Below are positions 22,231-59,543 of a stretch of DNA of 64,000 nt, in pieces. The notes below the pieces were generated by a model that saw nothing but the letters and a program-made list of their open reading frames with translations, searched no databases and was not told the DNA's origin. The first letter of the stretch is position 1. Each line of letters begins with the position of its first letter. The DNA is taken from the NCBI RefSeq assembly GCF_009674685.1, contig NZ_WKJI01000001.1:930001-994000 (forward strand), given 5' to 3'. This DNA is from Pedobacter puniceum (GTDB lineage: Bacteria > Bacteroidota > Bacteroidia > Sphingobacteriales > Sphingobacteriaceae). The position numbers and the translations under genes are program-made.

Positions 22231-22336
22231 GAAAAAATAGTTTTTTTGCTTAAATCCTTATTTGCAAAACTATTAACTTAAAATTATATTTACCAAATCC
22301 CAAAATTTAATACCATCATATTATTACAGAACCTAC

Positions 22337-25300
22337 ATGGATAACCTAATAAATAATTTCTCCATTGATGCTTTACAAAGCTTTTTTTACAACAAAATAT
22401 CAAGCTTTAAACCTATTAAAGAAAATCTTTCGGACATTTTATTAAAAAATAATTTCAACCAGTTTACTGATTTATTAAAAATAGGCGAAACCACTTTTAA
22501 TGGCTCCGAAGATTTATTGGTTTTTACATGTAAAGCAAAAACTATTTTATCAGAACGTTCTTCAAAAAAACAACAGTTTGAAATTGCTAAAAAAGTCCTA
22601 AAAGAAGATTTTAAAGATGGTGCCATCTTTGTTTTTTATGATGATGCAGGTAGTTTTAGATTTTCTTTCCTCCGTAAAAACTACGGAAATAAGGAGCAGA
22701 AATTCACGACTTGGAAACGCTATACCTACTACATAGAGAAAGATAAAACTAACAAAACCTTTAAAAATAGAATTGGAAATGCCGATTTTTCCTCTTTAGA
22801 CGCAATACAAAAAGCTTTCAGTGTAGAGAAACTGACTGAAGATTTTTATAAAGAGCTTTTCGCGTGGTATCAATGGACATTATCAGAAGAAATTGGGGTA
22901 ACGTTTCCAAACAATACAGAAACACATGAAGATGACCGAGTAAAATTAGAAGAACAGATTATACGTTTGATAACTAGATTATTATTCGTCTGGTTTATTA
23001 AACAGAAAAAACTTGTTCCTGCTCATTTATTTGATACTGAAAATTTAAAAAACTATTTAAAAGATTTCAATCCTAATAGTAAAGAAGATGGCAATTATTA
23101 CAATGCCATTTTACAAAACCTATTCTTTGCAACATTAAACAAGGAAATCTCCGAAAGAGCATTCTCAAAATTAGTTAAAGAACGAGATATAAAAACATTA
23201 TACCGTTATGCAGAAATGTTTTCAATCTCTGAAACAGAAGTTTTAGCCTTATTTAACCAAGTACCTTTCCTAAATGGTGGTTTGTTTGAATGTTTAGATA
23301 AAACAGAAAAAATGAACGGTACTAACCAAGTCTTAGATGGCTTTAGTAAAAACCCTACTAAATCTGCTAATGGTAATTTTAAGCACCGGGCATTTATCCC
23401 AAATTGTATCTTTTTTGATGATAAAAAAGGTATAATTCCACTTTTAGAACGCTACAACTTTACGGTAGAAGAAAATGCTCCAAATGAGATACAGGTTGCG
23501 CTAGACCCAGAATTATTAGGTAATGTTTTTGAAAATTTATTAGGTGCTTTTAACCCAGAAACTAAAGAAACTGCTCGTAAACAATCAGGGTCTTTTTATA
23601 CTCCAAAAGAAATTGTAAGTTATATGGTAGATGAAAGCTTAATCTTTTATCTGCATAATAGCTTTCCAAATTTAAAAGAAGAAAGTATCCGAGAACTATT
23701 TACAGCAGAAGAATTACCACTTGATTTTGCTAATAACCAAGCACTTTGTGAAGAAGTATCCTTAAAATTAAAAGAAATTAAAATATTAGACCCTGCTTGT
23801 GGTTCTGGTGCTTTTCCAATGGGTATTTTAAACAGAATGGTAGAGGTATTAGAAAAACTAGCTTGTCATAAAGAAAAATCTATTTACGATTTAAAACTTC
23901 ATTTAATAGAAGAATGTATTTATGGGGTTGATATACAAACCATAGCAGTACAAATAAGCAAGTTGCGTTTCTTTATATCGCTTATTGTGGAAGAACACGA
24001 TATTGATTTTACAAATCATCAAAACAACTATGGGATTCTTACCTTACCAAATTTAGAAACAAAATTTGTAGCTGCTAACACTTTAATTGGTATAAAACGT
24101 AAACCAGCGCAACACAATTTATTCGAAAATCCACAAATTGACCAAACTAAAGAAGATTTATTAGAAATTAGAAAAGAGCATTTCTACGCTAAAACAGCTA
24201 ATCGTAAAAAAACTTTGAGAGAAAAGGATGCCGAGTTAAGAGAAAAACTATCACTACTACTTCAAAACAATAACGATTATACGGCTGAAGATGCCATACA
24301 ATTTTCAAAGTGGAATCCTTACGACCAAAATGCTAGCTCTCCATTTTTTGATGTAGAATGGATGTTCGGCTTAAAAAGTGTAAGTGCTAATGAAGGTTGT
24401 TTTGATGTTGTGATTGGGAATCCACCTTATGTTCAATTACAAAAAGACGGCGGTAGACTAGCAAAAATGTATGATAAATTAGGCTATAAAACTTTTGAAA
24501 GAATGGGAGATATTTATTCGCTTTTTTATGAAAAAGGTAATCAAATTTTGAAAAATGGTGGATGTTTAACATATATAACAAGTAATAAATGGATGAGGGC
24601 TGGATATGGAGAAAGTACAAGAAGATATTTTGCAGAAAAAACTAATCCAATTTTACTAATTGATTTTGCTGGACACAAAATATTTGATAATGCAACTGTA
24701 GATACAAATATCTTAATGTTTCAAAACGCTAAAAATGAAGGTGAAACAAAATCCTGTATAGTTAAAAAAAAATGGGATGATAGTTTACATAATTATGTTA
24801 ATGATAATCAAACTATAAATAGTTTTACCTCATCTAATAGTTGGATTGTTTTAAGCCCAATAGAATTAGGAATTAAAGAAAAAATAGAAAAAATAGGTAC
24901 ACCACTTAAAGATTGGGATGTAAATATTTATCGAGGAATTCTCACAGGTTACAATGAAGCCTTTATTATTGATGGTAAAAAGAAGGATGAGTTAATAGCA
25001 GAAGATCCAAAATCTGCCGAAATTATTAGACCTATTTTAAGAGGTAGGGATATAAAACGTTATTCATACGAATTTGCTGAATTATATATAATTGCCATGT
25101 TTCCAAGTAAAAAATATGATATTGAAAATTATCCCGCTGTAAAACAGCATCTTTTAAGTTTTGGATATGATAGATTGAAACAAACTGGAGATAAAGGCGC
25201 CAGAAAGAAAACAACCAATAAATGGTACGAAACACAAGATAGTATAGGTTATTGGGAGGATTTTTATAAACAAAAAATAATCTATCCAAACATGACTAAA

Positions 25301-25675
25301 TATCTACCATTTGTATTTGATGATAAGGGATATTTAACAAACCAAAAGTGTTTTATTATTACAGGGGAGAATATCGCTTTTTTAACTGCTTTTTTAAATT
25401 CTTCTCTTTTTAAATATTGTTTTAAAGATAACTTTCCTGAATTATTGGGAGGAACAAGAGAGTTAAGTAAAATATTTTTTGAAAAGATACCTGTATTGCA
25501 AGTTTCAGAAGATATTAATACTGAATTTGAAAGATTAATTAATCAACTTCAAGATTCCATCAATAATAGTCAAGTAACTCAACTACTTGAGATACAAATT
25601 GATAATAAAATTTTTGATTTATATTGTTTAAATAATGAAGAACGAGAAATTATTGGTTTTATTGAGATTGAATAA
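22337..25675 (+). CDS. Type IIG/PglX-like (Eco57I-type) N6-adenine methyltransferase with C-terminal TRD; currently expressed allele
   Basis: SAM motif ILDPACGSGAFPMGILNRM; catalytic VIGNPPYVQLQ; QSGSFYTPKEIVSYMVDESL; TRD IRPILRGRDIKRYSYEFAELYII...EDFYKQKIIYPNM. Confidence 0.9.
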   Translation: MDNLINNFSIDALQSFFYNKISSFKPIKENLSDILLKNNFNQFTDLLKIGETTFNGSEDLLVFTCKAKTILSERSSKKQQFEIAKKVLKEDFKDGAIFVFYDDAGSFRFSFLRKNYGNKEQKFTTWKRYTYYIEKDKTNKTFKNRIGNADFSSLDAIQKAFSVEKLTEDFYKELFAWYQWTLSEEIGVTFPNNTETHEDDRVKLEEQIIRLITRLLFVWFIKQKKLVPAHLFDTENLKNYLKDFNPNSKEDGNYYNAILQNLFFATLNKEISERAFSKLVKERDIKTLYRYAEMFSISETEVLALFNQVPFLNGGLFECLDKTEKMNGTNQVLDGFSKNPTKSANGNFKHRAFIPNCIFFDDKKGIIPLLERYNFTVEENAPNEIQVALDPELLGNVFENLLGAFNPETKETARKQSGSFYTPKEIVSYMVDESLIFYLHNSFPNLKEESIRELFTAEELPLDFANNQALCEEVSLKLKEIKILDPACGSGAFPMGILNRMVEVLEKLACHKEKSIYDLKLHLIEECIYGVDIQTIAVQISKLRFFISLIVEEHDIDFTNHQNNYGILTLPNLETKFVAANTLIGIKRKPAQHNLFENPQIDQTKEDLLEIRKEHFYAKTANRKKTLREKDAELREKLSLLLQNNNDYTAEDAIQFSKWNPYDQNASSPFFDVEWMFGLKSVSANEGCFDVVIGNPPYVQLQKDGGRLAKMYDKLGYKTFERMGDIYSLFYEKGNQILKNGGCLTYITSNKWMRAGYGESTRRYFAEKTNPILLIDFAGHKIFDNATVDTNILMFQNAKNEGETKSCIVKKKWDDSLHNYVNDNQTINSFTSSNSWIVLSPIELGIKEKIEKIGTPLKDWDVNIYRGILTGYNEAFIIDGKKKDELIAEDPKSAEIIRPILRGRDIKRYSYEFAELYIIAMFPSKKYDIENYPAVKQHLLSFGYDRLKQTGDKGARKKTTNKWYETQDSIGYWEDFYKQKIIYPNMTKYLPFVFDDKGYLTNQKCFIITGENIAFLTAFLNSSLFKYCFKDNFPELLGGTRELSKIFFEKIPVLQVSEDINTEFERLINQLQDSINNSQVTQLLEIQIDNKIFDLYCLNNEEREIIGFIEIE
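25027..25044 (+). repeat. Inverted repeat A, copy 1 (recombination site)
   Basis: TAGACCTATTTTAAGAGG; exact reverse complement at 26278-26295. Confidence 0.85.
25255..25281 (+). repeat. Inverted repeat B, copy 1
   Basis: GGAGGATTTTTATAAACAAAAAATAAT; exact reverse complement at 26047-26073. Confidence 0.8.
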
Positions 25676-26046
25676 AGTTAAATTCTTCATTTGTTAATTT
25701 GTACAAATTACTAACTAGAACTTCAATTTTTGATTCAAGAATTCTGGTGTCTTCGTTTTTTTTCTTTTTTACTATTATCTCATTTACTAATTTAATAAAT
25801 GATTTCTGCTCAATTTCAGATATTATTGGGATTGGGAACATGTTTACATTTTGTCCGCCAACTTGGACATCCCCAACACCTGTTTTATTCATGTTAGTAA
25901 TAAAGCTATACCATATTATAATTTTTGAATTCAAAATAGAAAGTAGATACTCTAATCCTTTACCTATCAGAATATAACAAGCATTATTGACTATATATCG
26001 ATCTGAATCTATGGAAAATGCCATTTGATTACCAATAATTTTCCAA

Positions 26047-26073
26047 ATTATTTTTTGTTTATAAAAATCCTCC
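26047..26073 (-). repeat. Inverted repeat B, copy 2
   Basis: ATTATTTTTTGTTTATAAAAATCCTCC, reverse complement of 25255-25281. Confidence 0.8.
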
Positions 26074-26277
26074 ATATAAGCACAATTCCTTAAATTGTAG
26101 AGTGTATCTCCCTTATCAGTCCTTTTTGCTAAAATTTCAAAGTATTGATCTAAATGTTTTTTTATTGCAGGATAATCCTCTGCCTTAATAGGTTTTATGC
26201 CTTTTTCTTTAACTCCATTGTGTATATTGATTAACCATATATCAGCAAAATCATAAGTATATTTTTTAATATCTCTG

Positions 26278-26295
26278 CCTCTTAAAATAGGTCTA
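26278..26295 (-). repeat. Inverted repeat A, copy 2 (recombination site)
   Basis: CCTCTTAAAATAGGTCTA, reverse complement of 25027-25044. Confidence 0.85.
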
Positions 26296-26330
26296 TTATC
26301 TTATACAATTTTTAACAATATATTTAAGCC

Positions 26331-26948
26331 ATGATATACGGTTACATAAGAGTAAGTACTGATAAACAAACAGTAGAAAATCAAAGATTTGAAATAAATC
26401 AATTTTGTAGCAAACAAGAATTGTTTATAGAAAGATGGATAGAAGAAACTATTTCAGGCACAAAGGAAGTTGATAAACGTACTCTCGGAAAGCTTCTAAA
26501 AAAGACTCAAAAAGGTGATGTATTAATTTGTTCAGAATTATCACGTTTAGGTAGGAGCTTATTTATGATAATGGAAGTACTCAATTATTGCATGAAAAAA
26601 GAAGTGCAGGTTTGGACTATAAAAGATAATTATCGTTTAGGGAATGATATAAATTCTAAAGTGCTCGCATTTGCTTTTGGATTATCTGCCGAAATAGAAA
26701 GAAACTTGATCTCCCAAAGAACTAAAGAAGCACTTTCAAGAAAAAAAGCAGAAGGCGTTGTTCTTGGCAGGCCGATAGGAAAAAAATCAACAAAAGTTAA
26801 ACTAACTGGTAAAGAGAAAAAAATTTCAGATTTACTAAAAAAAAATGTTTCTTACAGTGCAATTGGAAGAATATTAGGAGTACATCGCTTAACTGTTTCT
26901 AAGTTTGCACATGAAAGACTAAAATCCTTAACTAATTTAAACTTTTAA
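26331..26948 (+). CDS. Serine site-specific recombinase, DNA invertase (Mpi-like)
   Basis: MIYGYIRVSTDKQTVENQRFEI, ELSRLGRSLFMIMEVL, KDNYRLGNDINSKVLAFAFGLSAEIERNLISQRTKEALSRKKAEGVVLGRP, C-terminal HTH. Confidence 0.93.
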   Translation: MIYGYIRVSTDKQTVENQRFEINQFCSKQELFIERWIEETISGTKEVDKRTLGKLLKKTQKGDVLICSELSRLGRSLFMIMEVLNYCMKKEVQVWTIKDNYRLGNDINSKVLAFAFGLSAEIERNLISQRTKEALSRKKAEGVVLGRPIGKKSTKVKLTGKEKKISDLLKKNVSYSAIGRILGVHRLTVSKFAHERLKSLTNLNF

Positions 26949-27049
26949 TATATTGTTTTGTAAATTCATTCAAAAAGTAGTTCTCTTTATGGGGTTAAAA
27001 TTTCCCTGAAATATAGAAGAGTTCTTTAATTTTAAATTAGAAATTTGGT

Positions 27050-28882
27050 ATGCAAAGCCTTTCAGAAATTATCAATTTATTAAACAGTACAGATGAATGC
27101 GCTACCCTAGAAGCTAAAAGAGGTACGGCCATTGGTCATTCGGTTTTAGAAAGTATTTGTGCTTTTGCAAACGAGCCAGGTTTAGGTGGTGGTACTATTA
27201 TTTTAGGGGTAACCCGTGATGAAAGCTCCTTATTTCCTGTATATCAAATAGAAGGTATAAAAGATCCAGATAAATTACAAGCTGATTTAGCCAGTCAAAC
27301 CGCATCATTATTTAACCAACCTATTAGACCACAAATAGAGTTAGAAACAACGCCGAATAATAAATTAGTACTTAAAATTAAAGTACCTGAACTTCCAGAT
27401 GGGCAAAAACCACTATATTTTAAAAACGAAGGCTTACCCAAAGGTGCATACAGGCGTATTGGTTCTACAGACCAGCATTGTACCGAAGATGATTTATTTG
27501 TTTTTTACAACAAGGAAGATAGTTTAGATAGTACCATAGTTAATGATACTAGCTTAGAAGATATTAGTGAAGAAGCTATCACACTATACCGTAATTTACG
27601 TAGCAAAGTAAATGAATATGCAGAGGAATTAACTTATAGTGATATTGATTTACTTCGCTCGTTAGGATGTATAAAAAAGCATAAAGACGATTATAAATTA
27701 ACTTATACAGGTTTATTGGTTTTTGGTAATAGAATGGCTTTAAGACGCTTAATGCCAATGGTAAGGGTAGATTATATACGAGTTCCCGGCAACACCTGGG
27801 TAGAAAACCCCGACAGTAGGTTTACTACTGTAGATATGCGTGGCCCCATGATACAATTAGTGCAACGTATTTTTAGTGCCATAGCAGATGATTTACCCAA
27901 AGGTTTTCTATTACCAGAAGGCGAGTTACAAGCTACCAATATTGGTTTGCCATCTAAAGTGTTACGTGAAGCAATAGTTAATGCACTTATCCATCGTACT
28001 TACAGAGAGAATCAGCCTATTCAAATTATTAGGTATGGCAATCGTTTAGAAATTAAAAACCCAGGCTTTTCGCTTAAACCCGAAGAACAATTAGGAGAGC
28101 CTGGCTCTAAAAATAGAAACCCCTTTATCGCATCCATATTTCACGAAACAAACTTAGCAGAAACCAAAGGTAGTGGAATAAGGATTATGCGTAGCTTAAT
28201 GGAAAAATCATCACTAGCTCCACCAACATTTGAAAGTAACCATACAGCAAATCAATTTACAACAAGGTTATTACTGCACCACTTCCTTAGTGAAGCTGAT
28301 ATAGCATGGCTTAAAACGTTTGAAGTTTACCAATTAAACGACGCACAAAAAAGAGCTTTAATTTTTGTTAGAGAAACAGGAGCCATAGATAATCAAGCTT
28401 ATAGACAACTTAATGGATGTGATATTTTAAAAGCGAGTACAGAGTTAAGAGCCATGAGAGATGTTGCATTATTGCAGCAAAAGGGTAAAGGAAGAGCCAC
28501 TTATTATATTATAGATAGTGGGTTTAATGCACCACTTACATCGCTAAGTACACCAGTTAGTGTGCTTAGTGCATCAGTTAATACACAACCTAATACCCTT
28601 AATACAGAACCTCAATCGTTATTACATGAGTTTCCAGATCATTTGCAAAGTGAGATAGCTCAAATTACAGTGAGAGAGAAAGACATCAATAAGATAAAAA
28701 ATCTGATTTACAAAATATGTAAGCATAGAAGTTGTTCTGTAAGAGAAATTGCAGCGCTCATAAAAAGAAAAGAAAATACAGTATTAAGAAATTATATTAT
28801 ACCTATGAAAGAGGATAATAAACTTCAATACACAATTCCTGATATGCCAAATCATCCAGATCAAGCCTATCAATCTATTTAA
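27050..28882 (+). CDS. AlbA_2 (Schlafen-like) plus HATPase_c_4 ATP-binding protein
   Basis: ATLEAKRGTAIGHSVLESICAFANEPGLGGGTIILGV; LPSKVLREAIVNALIHRTYRENQPIQIIRYGNRLEIKNPGF...ETKGSGIRIMRSLM. Confidence 0.85.
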   Translation: MQSLSEIINLLNSTDECATLEAKRGTAIGHSVLESICAFANEPGLGGGTIILGVTRDESSLFPVYQIEGIKDPDKLQADLASQTASLFNQPIRPQIELETTPNNKLVLKIKVPELPDGQKPLYFKNEGLPKGAYRRIGSTDQHCTEDDLFVFYNKEDSLDSTIVNDTSLEDISEEAITLYRNLRSKVNEYAEELTYSDIDLLRSLGCIKKHKDDYKLTYTGLLVFGNRMALRRLMPMVRVDYIRVPGNTWVENPDSRFTTVDMRGPMIQLVQRIFSAIADDLPKGFLLPEGELQATNIGLPSKVLREAIVNALIHRTYRENQPIQIIRYGNRLEIKNPGFSLKPEEQLGEPGSKNRNPFIASIFHETNLAETKGSGIRIMRSLMEKSSLAPPTFESNHTANQFTTRLLLHHFLSEADIAWLKTFEVYQLNDAQKRALIFVRETGAIDNQAYRQLNGCDILKASTELRAMRDVALLQQKGKGRATYYIIDSGFNAPLTSLSTPVSVLSASVNTQPNTLNTEPQSLLHEFPDHLQSEIAQITVREKDINKIKNLIYKICKHRSCSVREIAALIKRKENTVLRNYIIPMKEDNKLQYTIPDMPNHPDQAYQSI

Positions 28883-28892
28883 TAAACACACT

Positions 28893-28937
28893 TAATACAT
28901 AAGCTAGCTTATGTATTAGTGCTTAATACATAAGCTA
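28893..28937. promoter_or_regulatory. 26-bp perfect palindrome plus an additional direct half-repeat
   Basis: TAATACATAAGCTAGCTTATGTATTA (28893-28918); CTTAATACATAAGCTA repeated at 28891-28906 and 28922-28937, just before the ATG at 28945. Confidence 0.6.
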
Positions 28938-28944
28938 AACTAAA

Positions 28945-31900
28945 ATGGCAAACAATTTTATCACCAATAACACTACTCATAAAAGCTTAAAAGGCAGGTT
29001 AAACACCTTAATTGGCATTAGTGAAGAATTAAAATTTTTAGTAGGTTTCTTTTATTTTTCTGGCTGGCAAGAGTTGTATCAAAGCTTACAAAAAAATACT
29101 ACTTTAAAATTAAAGCTATTAGTAGGTTTACAAGTTTGTAACCACTTAAATAAAGTTTTAGAGTATATTAATCAAGATGAAGCACTATCACAAGACGAGC
29201 ATTTTAATGAGTTTATTACCTCACTAGGTTTTGCATTAAATAATCAAGAATTAGATACAGAAGCATTTTACAACCAAGTAGAATTTTTCTTACAAATGCT
29301 TCAGGATGAACGCTTAATTATTCGTAAAACAGAAAACCCAAACCATGCTAAATTATATCTATTCAGATTAAATCAAGAACAAGCAGAAATCCAGAATATG
29401 GAAGGGCAATTTGTAACGGGTAGCAGCAATTTAACAAAAGCAGGTTTATCTGGTCAAGAAGAATTTAATGTTGAAATTAAAGATTATGGTTTCAAAGATG
29501 CAGAGAGTTATTTTGACGAATTATGGGGGAAAGCCATCCCAATTTCTGAAGTCGAAAATCGCAAACAATTTCTAATTCAATTTATACAACACAAATCCCA
29601 AGCGGCAACAATAACCCCATTTGAAGCTTATGCGCTCATTTTAAAAACATATTTAGATTTACAATTACAAAAACAAATTAAGCCAGAAGTAGAAGGATTA
29701 TTAGAAGAAATTGGTTTTAAAAAGTTTGCTTATCAAACAGATGCCGTAAACCAAGCATTAACTGTAATTAACGAATACAATGGAGTAATCATTGCCGATG
29801 TAGTAGGTTTAGGTAAATCAGTTATTGCATCACTTATAGCAAAAAACTTAGGTAAAAGAGGCATGGTAATTTGTCCTCCAGGATTAATTGGTGATAGAAA
29901 TTACCATACAGGCTGGTGGGAGTATATCGAAAAATTTAAACTTTACGATTGGGAAGTACAAAGTAGAGGTAGATTAGAAGAGATTGCAGAAACCATTAAT
30001 AATAAAGGTATTGAAGTTTTAATTATAGACGAGGCTCATTACTTTCGTAATCAAGACACCGCAGACTATGAAGCACTTCTAAATATATGCAGAGACCGTA
30101 CAGTTATTTTATTATCAGCAACACCATTCAATAATTCTCCAGCAGATATTTTTTCACTCCTAAAGCTTTTTATCATACCGGGTAAATCAGGTATTTCCGT
30201 CGATGACAATTTAGAGGGCTTATTTAGTAATTTTAATTACAGATATAAGCAGTTATCCACCATTACAAAAAATGCAAATTCGTTATATAGTTTAAAAATT
30301 AAAAAAGCAGAAGCTTTATATAAAATCATAATTGATGATCAATTACCTATTGATATAAAAAAGGTAAGAAGTGCAACAAAACACTTAGCTAATCAAATTA
30401 AGCAAATTATATCATCTGTAGTAATTCGTAGAAACCGTCTGGATTTAAAACAAGATTACATCTATGCTAAAGAGGTATCCGAGCTTTCAAAAGTAAAAGA
30501 CCCAATAGAGTTATTTTATCATTTAACACCAGAGCAAAGTATTTTTTATGATAGCATATTAAATGAATACTTCTCAGAAAATGGAAGGTTTAAAGGGGCT
30601 ATTTACCAGCCGTTTAGTTACGAGAAAAAAGTTGAAGATGAAGAAAAACTAGACGAAAAGGGAAACAGAGCCTTCCAACAACAGCGCAACTTATATGATT
30701 TTATGAGAAGATTGCTGGTTAAGCGTTTCGAAAGTTCTTTTGGTGCATTTGAAAAATCTATTGACAGGTTTTTAAATGTACACCTAACTGTTAAAGATTT
30801 TATTAATAGTTCTAATGGTAAATTTATTTTAGACAGAGACTTTATGGAACGTATTCTCGCTTTTGACGAGGAAGATATACTAGCCAATTTGGATAAATAT
30901 GCACAAGGAGATTTAAAAAAGAAAACTCCTAAAAATAATACAGTTTACGATATTAATAAATTTGAACGCAAAGAAGAGTTTCTAAATGATATTGATAATG
31001 ATATATCAATTTTCAAAGAGATTAAAAAAGCTTTAACTAATCTAAATATTGTTCAAAACGATCCAAAAAGAAAAGAGATTACAAAAGAAATCAAAAGAAT
31101 ACTAACTACTGATAAGAACCGTAAAATTATTTTATTTTCAGAATATGTAGATACAATTCTTCATTTAGAAGATTATCTAAGAGTAGAGTTTGGAAACAGA
31201 TTGCTTGTATGTGCTGGTAAAGTATCAAAAGAACTATCAAAAAATTTAAGTTCCGATTTTAACGCACAATACAAAGGTGGTCAAACTAATAATTTTGATG
31301 TAATAATTACATCAGATAAACTATCTGAGGGTTTTAATTTAAATAGGGCAGGAGCAATTATAAATTATGATATCCCATGGAATCCTACACGAGTAATACA
31401 AAGAGTAGGTAGAATAAATCGTATTGGTGCAAAAGTTTTTGACGAACTATATATTTATAATTATTTTCCATCAGAAATAGGTGCTGATATAGTTAAATCA
31501 AGAGAAATTGCACAACAAAAAATGTTCTTAATTCATAGTTCTTTGGGTGAAGATGCCAAAATATTTGATATAGAAGAAGAACCATCTGCATCTGGTTTAT
31601 ACAGTAAGTTAAACCAAAGTCCGGATGAAGATGGAGAATTAAACACAGTAACGATAGTGAGAAATACGTTTAAAGATATTGAGGAAAAATATCCAAGCGT
31701 TATTGAAAAAATAAACAATCTCCCACCTCGTGTTAAAACAGCTAAGAAGTTTGATACAAATAATTTGAATGTATTAAGAAAAAAGGGGTTAAGTCTTTTT
31801 GCTCAAGTGGTAGATTTAACAGAAAAGAGCAGTGGAGATATAGAAGAGGTAATATTCGAAGAATTACTTAAAAACGTGAAATGCGAATATGAAGAACCTC

Positions 31901-32301
31901 GCTTATCATTATCAGATGAGTTTTGGCCTACGTATGAAAAAATTAAAAACTTCAAACCTAATTTCAAAACAGGCAGAAGTGATATTGCATTAGAGTCAAA
32001 AGCATATGAAAACTTACAAGTCTATTTAAAGATTTTAAATGGGAAAGAAGAAACATTAGCAGAATTTATAAAAATGCTCCTTCTGGACATAAAGAAGTAT
32101 CATACACTTTCAACTCGTTCGATTGGTAGATTAGGAAGGAAAATAATTTCAAAAGAAACAAATGAAAAAGAGTTAAAAGCTTTTAGAGATGATATATTTT
32201 GGTTAAGAAATCATTTAGGATTAAACTATCTAAACAAGATTTTAGAACGTGTAGATAAATACCAAAATGAAGTAATTATTGCAGTTGAGAATATCTATTG
32301 A
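28945..32301 (+). CDS. PLD-like nuclease domain fused to an SNF2-type helicase
   Basis: N-terminal NHAKLYLF (HxK) and GQFVTGSSNLTKAGL; helicase GVIIADVVGLGKSVIASLIA, LIIDEAHYFRN, LLSATPFNNSP, DIPWNPTRVIQRVGRINRIG. Confidence 0.9.
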   Translation: MANNFITNNTTHKSLKGRLNTLIGISEELKFLVGFFYFSGWQELYQSLQKNTTLKLKLLVGLQVCNHLNKVLEYINQDEALSQDEHFNEFITSLGFALNNQELDTEAFYNQVEFFLQMLQDERLIIRKTENPNHAKLYLFRLNQEQAEIQNMEGQFVTGSSNLTKAGLSGQEEFNVEIKDYGFKDAESYFDELWGKAIPISEVENRKQFLIQFIQHKSQAATITPFEAYALILKTYLDLQLQKQIKPEVEGLLEEIGFKKFAYQTDAVNQALTVINEYNGVIIADVVGLGKSVIASLIAKNLGKRGMVICPPGLIGDRNYHTGWWEYIEKFKLYDWEVQSRGRLEEIAETINNKGIEVLIIDEAHYFRNQDTADYEALLNICRDRTVILLSATPFNNSPADIFSLLKLFIIPGKSGISVDDNLEGLFSNFNYRYKQLSTITKNANSLYSLKIKKAEALYKIIIDDQLPIDIKKVRSATKHLANQIKQIISSVVIRRNRLDLKQDYIYAKEVSELSKVKDPIELFYHLTPEQSIFYDSILNEYFSENGRFKGAIYQPFSYEKKVEDEEKLDEKGNRAFQQQRNLYDFMRRLLVKRFESSFGAFEKSIDRFLNVHLTVKDFINSSNGKFILDRDFMERILAFDEEDILANLDKYAQGDLKKKTPKNNTVYDINKFERKEEFLNDIDNDISIFKEIKKALTNLNIVQNDPKRKEITKEIKRILTTDKNRKIILFSEYVDTILHLEDYLRVEFGNRLLVCAGKVSKELSKNLSSDFNAQYKGGQTNNFDVIITSDKLSEGFNLNRAGAIINYDIPWNPTRVIQRVGRINRIGAKVFDELYIYNYFPSEIGADIVKSREIAQQKMFLIHSSLGEDAKIFDIEEEPSASGLYSKLNQSPDEDGELNTVTIVRNTFKDIEEKYPSVIEKINNLPPRVKTAKKFDTNNLNVLRKKGLSLFAQVVDLTEKSSGDIEEVIFEELLKNVKCEYEEPRLSLSDEFWPTYEKIKNFKPNFKTGRSDIALESKAYENLQVYLKILNGKEETLAEFIKMLLLDIKKYHTLSTRSIGRLGRKIISKETNEKELKAFRDDIFWLRNHLGLNYLNKILERVDKYQNEVIIAVENIY

Positions 32302-32480
32302 GTTAAATCTAAACTTAACTATAAATTAAGTACCAATTGTATTAAGGAAACTGAATATGTGGATGTTTTTTGTATAAAGATAAGCCTAACAGGTAATTAA
32401 CAGTTTTTTCCTGTGATTTCTTTTTTACCATTGATGTTTTTTAGATATATTATTAATTAGCGTAATTTAATTTATAACAA

Positions 32481-44827: not shown

Positions 44828-44953
44828 CGTACTGTTTTATTGAAATCGAATCAAAAATGAAACCATGTTTTAATGTTGGTAAAATAATATTTAAACAAGG
44901 AATAAAAGGAGGAATATTTTAAATATTACAATACACGGATGATGATTATTTTT

Positions 44954-45250
44954 TAGAGATTTTGAACTAATTGGCTATTGCGCTCAAGGCTTTCCGGCCT
45001 CATAGGCGGCCAGCCCTAGTCACTTTTTTCTTGAAAAAAAGTGCCTAAACATTCAAGGCTGATGAATATTTGTCGTTCCGTCTAAATAAATCTTTATCCA
45101 CAATCCTGAGTGTTCTAAAGGGTTTTGCTTGATGAAAGTATTTACAACACCCGTCGGATTGTTTCCCGCCTGTGCTTTATGAAAGTTTATACAAAAGATT
45201 TATTTGCCTTCAATCCAAATCTTCATAGGCCGTCCTCGTTCTTCGGTAAG
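44954..45250. repeat. Long intergenic repeat, copy A
   Basis: AAGGCTTTCCGGCCTCATAGGCGGCCAGCCCTAG...CAAGGCTGATGAATATTTGTCGTT...CAACACCCGTCGGATTGTTT...CTTCATAGGCCGTC shared with 58747-59085. Confidence 0.8.
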
Positions 45251-45269
45251 TTTGGTTTAATATTATTGG

Positions 45270-45400
45270 AAGTCCCTAAATATCGCTTTTTAGGCATTTT
45301 TATACTTTATACTCTGTACTTTATACTTAAAAGGCAGTTCTTAAATATCCGCTCTTTAGGGTCTTTATACTTTATACTCTGTACTTTATTCTTAAAATCC
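45270..45400. repeat. Imperfect tandem repeat of CTAAATATC...TTTATACTTTATACTCTGTACTTTATACTT
   Basis: Two units in tandem; related TACTTTCTACTYCGTACTTTCTACTT tracts at 45595-45625, 59105-59165 and 59603-59636. Confidence 0.7.
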
Positions 45401-58542: not shown

Positions 58543-58746
58543 ATTGTGACGTGTTTGTTCTAAATATAGTCTTAAAAGCTTAAATTGAGGATTAAGTTTT
58601 AAAGAATTTTTAGATTTTGGTGAAATTTAGTTAATCGATATCGTTAAATATGATATGACATATCAAAAAACCTACCATTGAAGTATTCATTAAGGTTTAA
58701 AAATAAGATGTTTTTGCTCTAGCGGCAGGTAGTGGTTTCTTTTTTT

Positions 58747-59085
58747 ATTGGCAATTACGCACAAGGCTTTCCGGCCTCATAGGCGGCCAGCCCTAGGCAC
58801 TTTTTTCTTGATAAAAATTGAACAAAAAACGAGGAACGAGTTCATGAATGCCTAAGAAAAACCATAAACAAAAAATGAATAAATCAAGGCTGATGAATAT
58901 TTGTCGTTTCGTCTAAATAAATCTTTAGCCACAATCCTGAGTGGTGTGAAGGGTTTTGCTTGATGATTACTTCTACAACACCCGTCGGATTGTTTTCCGA
59001 CAGTGTTTAATAAAAGTTTATGCAGAAGATTTATTTGACTACACTTCCAAATCTTCATAGGCCGTCTTCGTTCTTAGGAAAGATG
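58747..59085. repeat. Long intergenic repeat, copy B
   Basis: Same block order as 44954-45250, with extra sequence (GAACAAAAAACGAGGAACGAGTTC...) inserted after CACTTTTTTCTTGA. Confidence 0.8.
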
Positions 59086-59490
59086 AATTTTATGTTTATA
59101 GGTAGTTCCTAAATATCCACTTTTTAGGGTCTCTCTACTTTCTACTTTATACTCCGTATTTTTTACTACTAGATAGGAACAAACTTTGATAATAAAACAG
59201 CTTAAACCGAAGCGCATGATCAATCCCCCAGAGCCGGAAAGACGAAAAAACAGTAGCAGAAATTAAAAAATCTTGCACAACCAAGCCTATAGCGAATGCG
59301 GTTTTGCGTTCGAGTTTGTAAAAGCATTCATAAAGCACAAACGAGCAAAAATAAGCGCCAATTGTTTTTTGAGTGTGGGTAGGGTTTGTGCGACAAAGGC
59401 TCCTGCGGGATTGTTCAGGACTTTTGGTTCCTTTTGGTCCCGCAAAAGGAACGAGCCCCGCCGGCGATAGAGGCGGATATTTATGTTTTA

Positions 59491-59543
59491 TAGAGATTGT
59501 GAACTAATTGGCTGTTGCGCACAAGGCTTTCCGGTCTCATAGG
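59491..59543. repeat. Long intergenic repeat, truncated copy C
   Basis: TAGAGATTGTGAACTAATTGGCTGTTGCGCACAAGGCTTTCCGGTCTCATAGG matches the start of copy A. Confidence 0.75.

Follow-up and report, generated by a model that had tools for sequence, protein, structure and literature searches.

A probable two-subunit ATP-dependent restriction-modification system with predicted switchable specificity in Pedobacter puniceum

Which genes of the island that follows mnmE in Pedobacter puniceum form a working unit, and what might that unit do? Within the 64,000-nucleotide stretch that we analysed (contig NZ_WKJI01000001.1, positions 930,001 to 994,000, forward strand; hereafter the window), the ~10 kb directly after mnmE hold a methylase gene, an alternative target-recognition domain (TRD) on the reverse strand, an invertase gene, an AlbA_2/HATPase gene and a gene for a PLD (HKD) nuclease fused to a SNF2 motor. 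The original prediction, made from the letters alone, had described a possible composite defence system here, and its genes and domains were confirmed by open reading frame (ORF) calls, which place all large ORFs where it had put them, and by Pfam and NCBIfam. We conclude that the locus is probably a two-subunit ATP-dependent restriction-modification (R-M) system with switchable specificity, in which a methylase carrying its own specificity domain (M~S) is served by an HKD-SNF2 restriction motor (R). The pairing of the two genes, their intact catalytic motifs, the in-frame geometry of the switch and the methylase's want of a nuclease motif are seen in the sequences.

Loci with the PLD-SNF2 gene were gathered from a scan of genome contigs, a sample of the family and an even sample of the phylum (395 genomes), and their neighbourhoods were read from ORF calls together with models built in this analysis. 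The gene was present in 24 of the 395 phylum-sample genomes (~6% of sampled Bacteroidota). Setting aside the window's own genome, an Eco57I-type methylase lay close by in all 20 of the 23 loci with enough flanking DNA, including one (L089) in which it was recognised by a related model and is separated from its partner by three or four ORFs; contig ends truncate the remaining three. Searching in reverse, from the methylase, gave 27 other genomes, 22 with an adjacent PLD-SNF2 gene (eight known from the first sample and 14 more), one cut off and four unpartnered. The pairing is near-obligate, which fits the roles first suggested for the two proteins, the PLD-helicase being the likely cutter and the methylase the likely marker of self. 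Neither gene order nor intervening genes are conserved among the pairs: the closest clade has the methylase, a slot and then PLD-SNF2, and more distant clades have PLD-SNF2 followed by the methylase. One genome carries two pairs ~22 kb apart, with neighbours of similar size (L048 and L049, G176:C3). Pairs 46-55% identical occur outside Bacteroidota, in metagenome-assembled genomes of Brachyspira murdochii (L036) and of a member of Desulfobacterales (L030), which suggests horizontal spread or binning error.

The methylase matches Eco57I (5e-37) and, towards its C-terminus, TaqI_C (4e-14) in Pfam, and its DPACGSGA and NPPY motifs are invariant or nearly so in an alignment of 42 relatives (this alignment and the 55-row PLD-SNF2 alignment leave out rows from plasmid records). 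Its structure model (mean pLDDT 82.4) found CamA (1e-29) and BrxX/PglX (4e-22) in Foldseek, with BseCI and MmeI matched too, and its nearest PADLOC match is a type IIG entry (PDLC03596, 468 bits). The N-terminal domain has neither a conserved PD-(D/E)xK motif nor a D...ExK motif. A D-x-hydrophobic...E-x-K-(K/R)-P motif in the first 330 residues was found in 0/55 partnered methylases versus 4/4 unpartnered relatives, in all four within a DUF7149 domain (Fisher p 2e-6, ignoring relatedness), and when relaxed to E-x-K the scan returned a few dispersed matches among the partnered proteins, at no conserved position. This contrast is what a nuclease supplied in trans predicts. On plasmids of Allomeiothermus silvanus (L059) and Thermus oshimai (L060), the methylase and the presumed specificity part are separate genes that adjoin a PLD-SNF2 protein 38-41% identical to that of the window, and since these split M and S genes adjoin the same motor we read the window's methylase as M~S.

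The partner protein matches PLDc_2, SNF2-rel_dom and Helicase_C in Pfam. The HxK and GSSN pointed out in the original prediction are H134/K136 and residues 159-162, invariant in 55 aligned relatives, as are K291, D362, E363, H365, R820 and R823 of the SNF2 motor. Foldseek matched the structure model (pLDDT 80.9) to RapA (9e-16); further structure comparison mostly probes the motor (residues 239-900), so that the lack of PLD structures there is uninformative. Each chain has a single HxK motif, and cutting should therefore require two chains to come together, as a dimer or when one molecule encounters another. In SauUSI and BfiI two PLD chains build the active site (PMC7913695), and by analogy two PLD-SNF2 chains should do so here. 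A Pfam scan of the protein found no recognisable TRD. Its PADLOC matches, to DrmD, HmaA (72 bits), BrxH and DpdE, all fall on the motor, and phages likewise gave weak matches in the motor region only.

The geometry of the switch lies at the C-terminal end of the methylase. The silent TRD is present on the reverse strand, as had been proposed, but is longer than the ATG-started ORF 25659-26075 (TaqI_C 1e-10 on that part): a frame of ~213 codons stays open to ~26297, inside the outer inverted repeat, where the cassette lacks its own start codon. Expressed and silent TRDs share 71/205 aligned residues. The outer 18-bp core sits inside a 64-nt region that is 80% identical, and simple arithmetic puts the chance expectation of a 27-bp exact match, such as the inner core, between stretches of ~1 kb and ~0.65 kb at the order of 1e-8 or less, so the inverted repeats are not chance. 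Computed inversion at either repeat leaves an in-frame methylase of 1110 aa (inner repeat) or 1108 aa with its TRD partly or wholly replaced. The invertase scores 335 bits against NF009949 (cut-off 272) and is the only Mpi-family member found in its own genome; in relatives it adjoins the cassette in members of both major clades, and the PLD-SNF2 tree (short search, midpoint rooting) requires at least five changes. In seven relatives the cassette arms are identical inside each genome over 19-111 bp, with cores that differ between genomes and, in several, arms at other places in the methylase gene; identity within but not between genomes points to recent recombination in each genome and not to protein conservation. 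Inverted repeats, a silent TRD and a recombinase, features of an invertible-TRD R-M system, are all present, and inversion would be expected in living cells. TRD switching, as originally proposed, would alter marking and probably cutting too. At L107 (11705-15863) the arms are identical in separate blocks of 111, 96, 32, 29 and 29 bp, a pattern that several crossovers or gene conversion might leave. A stand-alone type IIG methylase (L176, G013:C3, 329-4075), which carries a DUF7149 nuclease domain at its N-terminus, is likewise accompanied by a reverse-strand TRD and an adjoining Mpi-type invertase, so the switch is not bound to a PLD-SNF2 partner.

Table 1. Features of the island after mnmE, in window coordinates.
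Feature	Coordinates	Strand	Basis
Variable island flanked by mnmE and a glycosidase-like gene	22295..32461		collinearity with relative G108
N6-adenine methyltransferase fused to TRD (M~S), 1112 aa	22337..25675	+	Pfam, Foldseek, conserved motifs
Currently expressed TRD (predicted), aa ~897-1112	25025..25672	+	TaqI_C 899-1053
Outer inverted-repeat core, left arm, TAGACCTATTTTAAGAGG	25027..25044	+	18 bp exact
Inner inverted-repeat core, left arm, GGAGGATTTTTATAAACAAAAAATAAT	25255..25281	+	27 bp exact
Silent alternative TRD cassette, tail-to-tail with methylase	25659..26297	-	TaqI_C, open frame
Inner inverted-repeat core, right arm	26047..26073	-	27 bp exact
Outer inverted-repeat core, right arm	26278..26295	-	18 bp exact
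Mpi-family serine DNA invertase, 205 aa	26331..26948	+	Resolvase; NCBIfam NF009949
AlbA_2 / HATPase_c_4 / winged-helix-like protein, 610 aa	27050..28882	+	Pfam SLFN_AlbA_2, HATPase_c_4; homologue context
PLD (HKD) nuclease - SNF2 motor, 1118 aa, predicted restriction subunit	28945..32301	+	Pfam, alignment, model
HKD half-site H134-x-K136 ... G159-S-S-N162 ... E173-x-N175	29344..29469	+	invariant in 55 aligned relatives
Walker A of SNF2 motor, ADVVGLGK, aa 284-291	29794..29817	+	K291 invariant

Domains and pairing together suggest a mechanism of self-methylation and ATP-driven cleavage of unmodified DNA. The M~S subunit is a predicted gamma-type N6-adenine methylase whose chain includes the TRD but no recognisable working nuclease, and it would mark its site in the host's own DNA. 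When unmarked DNA enters, the methylase TRD would recruit or license the R subunit, a putative HKD/PLD nuclease half-site on a SNF2 translocase, which would translocate on ATP, with HKD domains cleaving the DNA in pairs. The Mpi-type invertase would flip the DNA that the inverted repeats enclose. With the TRD exchanged in whole or in part, the marked sequence would change, and because the R subunit has no recognisable TRD the restricted sequence would probably switch with it. The AlbA_2/HATPase protein would be an accessory in the slot between the M and R genes. Methylation, recruitment, translocation, cleavage and an anti-phage effect are the parts of this scheme that we infer.

The place of the AlbA_2/HATPase gene is where our reading departs furthest from the original prediction, which had counted it among the core components of one conserved set. 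Co-occurrence of methylase and PLD-SNF2 held up and the invertase proved recurrent, whereas AlbA_2 is absent from most relatives and unrelated accessory genes take its place; the neighbourhood comparison led us to reject the idea that the four co-directional genes are conserved together. Most loci have nothing between methylase and PLD-SNF2; in the others this slot holds AbiEi/AbiEii genes (DUF6088 with AbiEii, or an AbiEii variant), AAA_14/DUF4143, BRO-N or AlbA_2/HATPase, and among 29 scored rows of the PLD-SNF2 tree at least 14 changes of occupant are needed. A four-gene composite system with the AlbA_2/HATPase protein as an essential third component would account for the three other loci, spread across both clades, in which this gene adjoins PLD-SNF2 or lies one gene away (L088, L061 and L107), but the mostly empty or unrelated slot makes it a distinctly unlikely explanation, as does the position of the two closest homologues of the window's protein (63-69%) inside type III systems, where they separate mod from res. 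We read AlbA_2/HATPase as a gene that settles between M and R in systems of more than one type and is optional here; a role as regulator or sensor, perhaps, is a guess from its domains. It has no relative in viral contigs. In one locus (L063, G142:C1:2642500-2662000) an AlbA_2/HATPase gene lies between type III mod and res and is directly followed by another HKD-SNF2 protein, a full-length match to PADLOC C3a139 (384 bits).

Three further explanations leave the AlbA_2 gene aside. The methylase might mark self while the SNF2 protein blocks phage replication without cutting, or cuts within a larger complex encoded elsewhere, as in BREX/Pgl-like exclusion. The methylase fold does match BrxX/PglX as well, and the motor resembles RapA and is remotely homologous to the helicases of BREX-related (BR) systems; with the HKD residues invariant, neither DUF499 nor DUF3780 in the genome, and its PglZ domain confined to a 525-aa frame on a different contig, we hold this to be unlikely. 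It is very improbable that a switchable methylase acting on its own, whether type IIG-like or as an epigenetic regulator, sits by chance beside an independent PLD-SNF2 defence gene: adjacency is near-obligate in both directions and across many families, with the order reversed between clades, and the stand-alone methylases have a nuclease domain of their own, even though the locus is a hotspot that holds other genes, some of them toxin-antitoxin (TA)-like, in relatives, and four methylase relatives do stand alone. Least credible of all is an inactive remnant kept solely as a methylome switch, since the frames are intact and all catalytic residues are present in both subunits; what can be said for it is that our interpretation of the locus draws on sequence and not on function. 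Several observations weigh against the two-subunit R-M reading itself. The four unpartnered type IIG relatives may form one clade, so that the motif contrast may reflect a single event, the N-terminal domain of the partnered methylases could hold an unrecognised activity, and some distant or fragmentary PLD-SNF2 homologues have no clear HKD match. Site-finding by the R subunit is something that we infer, a single cassette orientation was seen in this species, and the case as a whole is built from sequence, including the geometry behind the switch, and not from activity or a methylome.

Among published architectures the closest is the Type-2 BR system, in which an N6-adenine methylase and an HKD-Swi2/Snf2 effector are proposed to act in restriction-modification (PMC12839542). 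The window likewise has an HKD nuclease fused to a SNF2 motor, but the Type-2 BR system also has a DUF499 ATPase, DUF3780 and a DUF1156 methylase, and we found no match to DUF499 in the whole genome, to DUF3780 in the same genome, or to DUF1156 among the window's proteins in Pfam. DUF3780 occurred in 3/395 sampled genomes and in none of the 24 that carry PLD-SNF2. The BR helicases of three Bacteroidota loci score 96-120 bits against the PLD-SNF2 model, against more than 700 for full-length members, and these loci have genes of the expected size around DUF3780, with methylases that do not match the model of the present methylase family.

Other systems share parts with the locus, and DISARM, BREX, type I, IIG, ISP, SauUSI and CglI/NgoAVII each fail at least one defining feature. 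Type IIG enzymes of the Eco57I family also have methylase and TRD on one chain, whereas the window's methylase lacks a recognisable N-terminal nuclease motif and has a separate ATP-driven nuclease gene instead. Type ISP enzymes (LlaGI, LlaBIII; PMC3874165), half-type-I enzymes, likewise combine a translocase, a gamma-methylase and a single TRD, but as one polypeptide with an Mrr-like nuclease where the window has two genes and an HKD nuclease. SauUSI (PMC7913695) and CglI and NgoAVII (PMC4267653) resemble it in a PLD nuclease that is driven by an SF2 ATPase and forms its active site as a dimer; SauUSI differs in being modification-dependent, with an SRA domain, and CglI/NgoAVII in their separate R (PLD-B3) and helicase genes and cytosine methylase. 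Inversion swaps TRDs, and hence specificity, in type I systems with invertible hsdS as well (PMC4948785, PMC5903667), but in the window the methylase's own C-terminal end serves as TRD, and the invertase belongs to the Mpi serine family. Type I systems in general differ in their separate HsdS and PD-(D/E)xK HsdR, the window's TRD being fused to the methylase and its nuclease being HKD. Operons of GHKL-ATPase (MORC/paraMORC) R-M systems (PMC2292703) join a GHKL-type ATPase gene to an SF2 helicase and a methylase, but the window has an optional AlbA_2/HATPase_c_4 protein in place of MORC. The resemblance to DISARM and BREX noted at the outset comes down to shared domains. DISARM was rejected: all island genes are accounted for, with no drmA, drmB or drmC among them, and the DrmD match is to the motor. 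The sole MZB-domain protein, possibly a DrmA/YprA-like helicase, is a 1604-aa frame 214 kb from the window (L181, G000:C1:1208249-1208500). BREX was rejected as well, there being no PglZ and BrxC beside the methylase, which scores 95 bits against the PglX model (cut-off 500).

The PADLOC check that had been called for returned no named system, only piecewise labels, and none for the methylase/PLD-SNF2 pair appeared in NCBIfam or the literature searched; as REBASE and most subscription papers lay outside the search, we place the locus within ATP-dependent restriction-modification and not as something categorically new. On balance we lean slightly towards a broader view, of a widespread unnamed ATP-dependent class in which a nuclease-less methylase~TRD is obligately paired with a trans-acting HKD-SNF2 protein, an Mpi invertase is repeatedly recruited and a dedicated slot swaps regulatory or abortive-infection modules.

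The surroundings show the island to be exchangeable. In G108, a near relative with a 97% identical MnmE protein, collinearity with the window extends to 22294 and resumes at 32462, a weaker match beginning at 32348, and ~1.3 kb of other small genes stand in place of the island; G018 (MnmE 99% identical) has yet another gene set there. The stretch 22337-32301 thus occupies a variable slot after mnmE. Some of the replacing genes in near relatives are TA-like, as judged by reading, and the A+T content of the island is above that of most of the window. Elsewhere in the window, a family of intergenic-looking repeats occurs in two places 13.8 kb apart (44949-45397 and 58726-59543), with further copies in G108 (L123, 10813-15923).

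This work defines a compact two-gene restriction architecture of which PADLOC labels only the pieces, and offers a natural comparison between type IIG enzymes with a built-in cutter and relatives whose cutter is a separate motor. It also adds to the cases of invertase-driven specificity switching beyond type I hsdS. Modification and restriction should switch together, which would leave the host briefly unmarked at its new sites, a problem shared with invertible type I systems, and the locus allows a test of how cells live through the period when their own DNA lacks the new mark.

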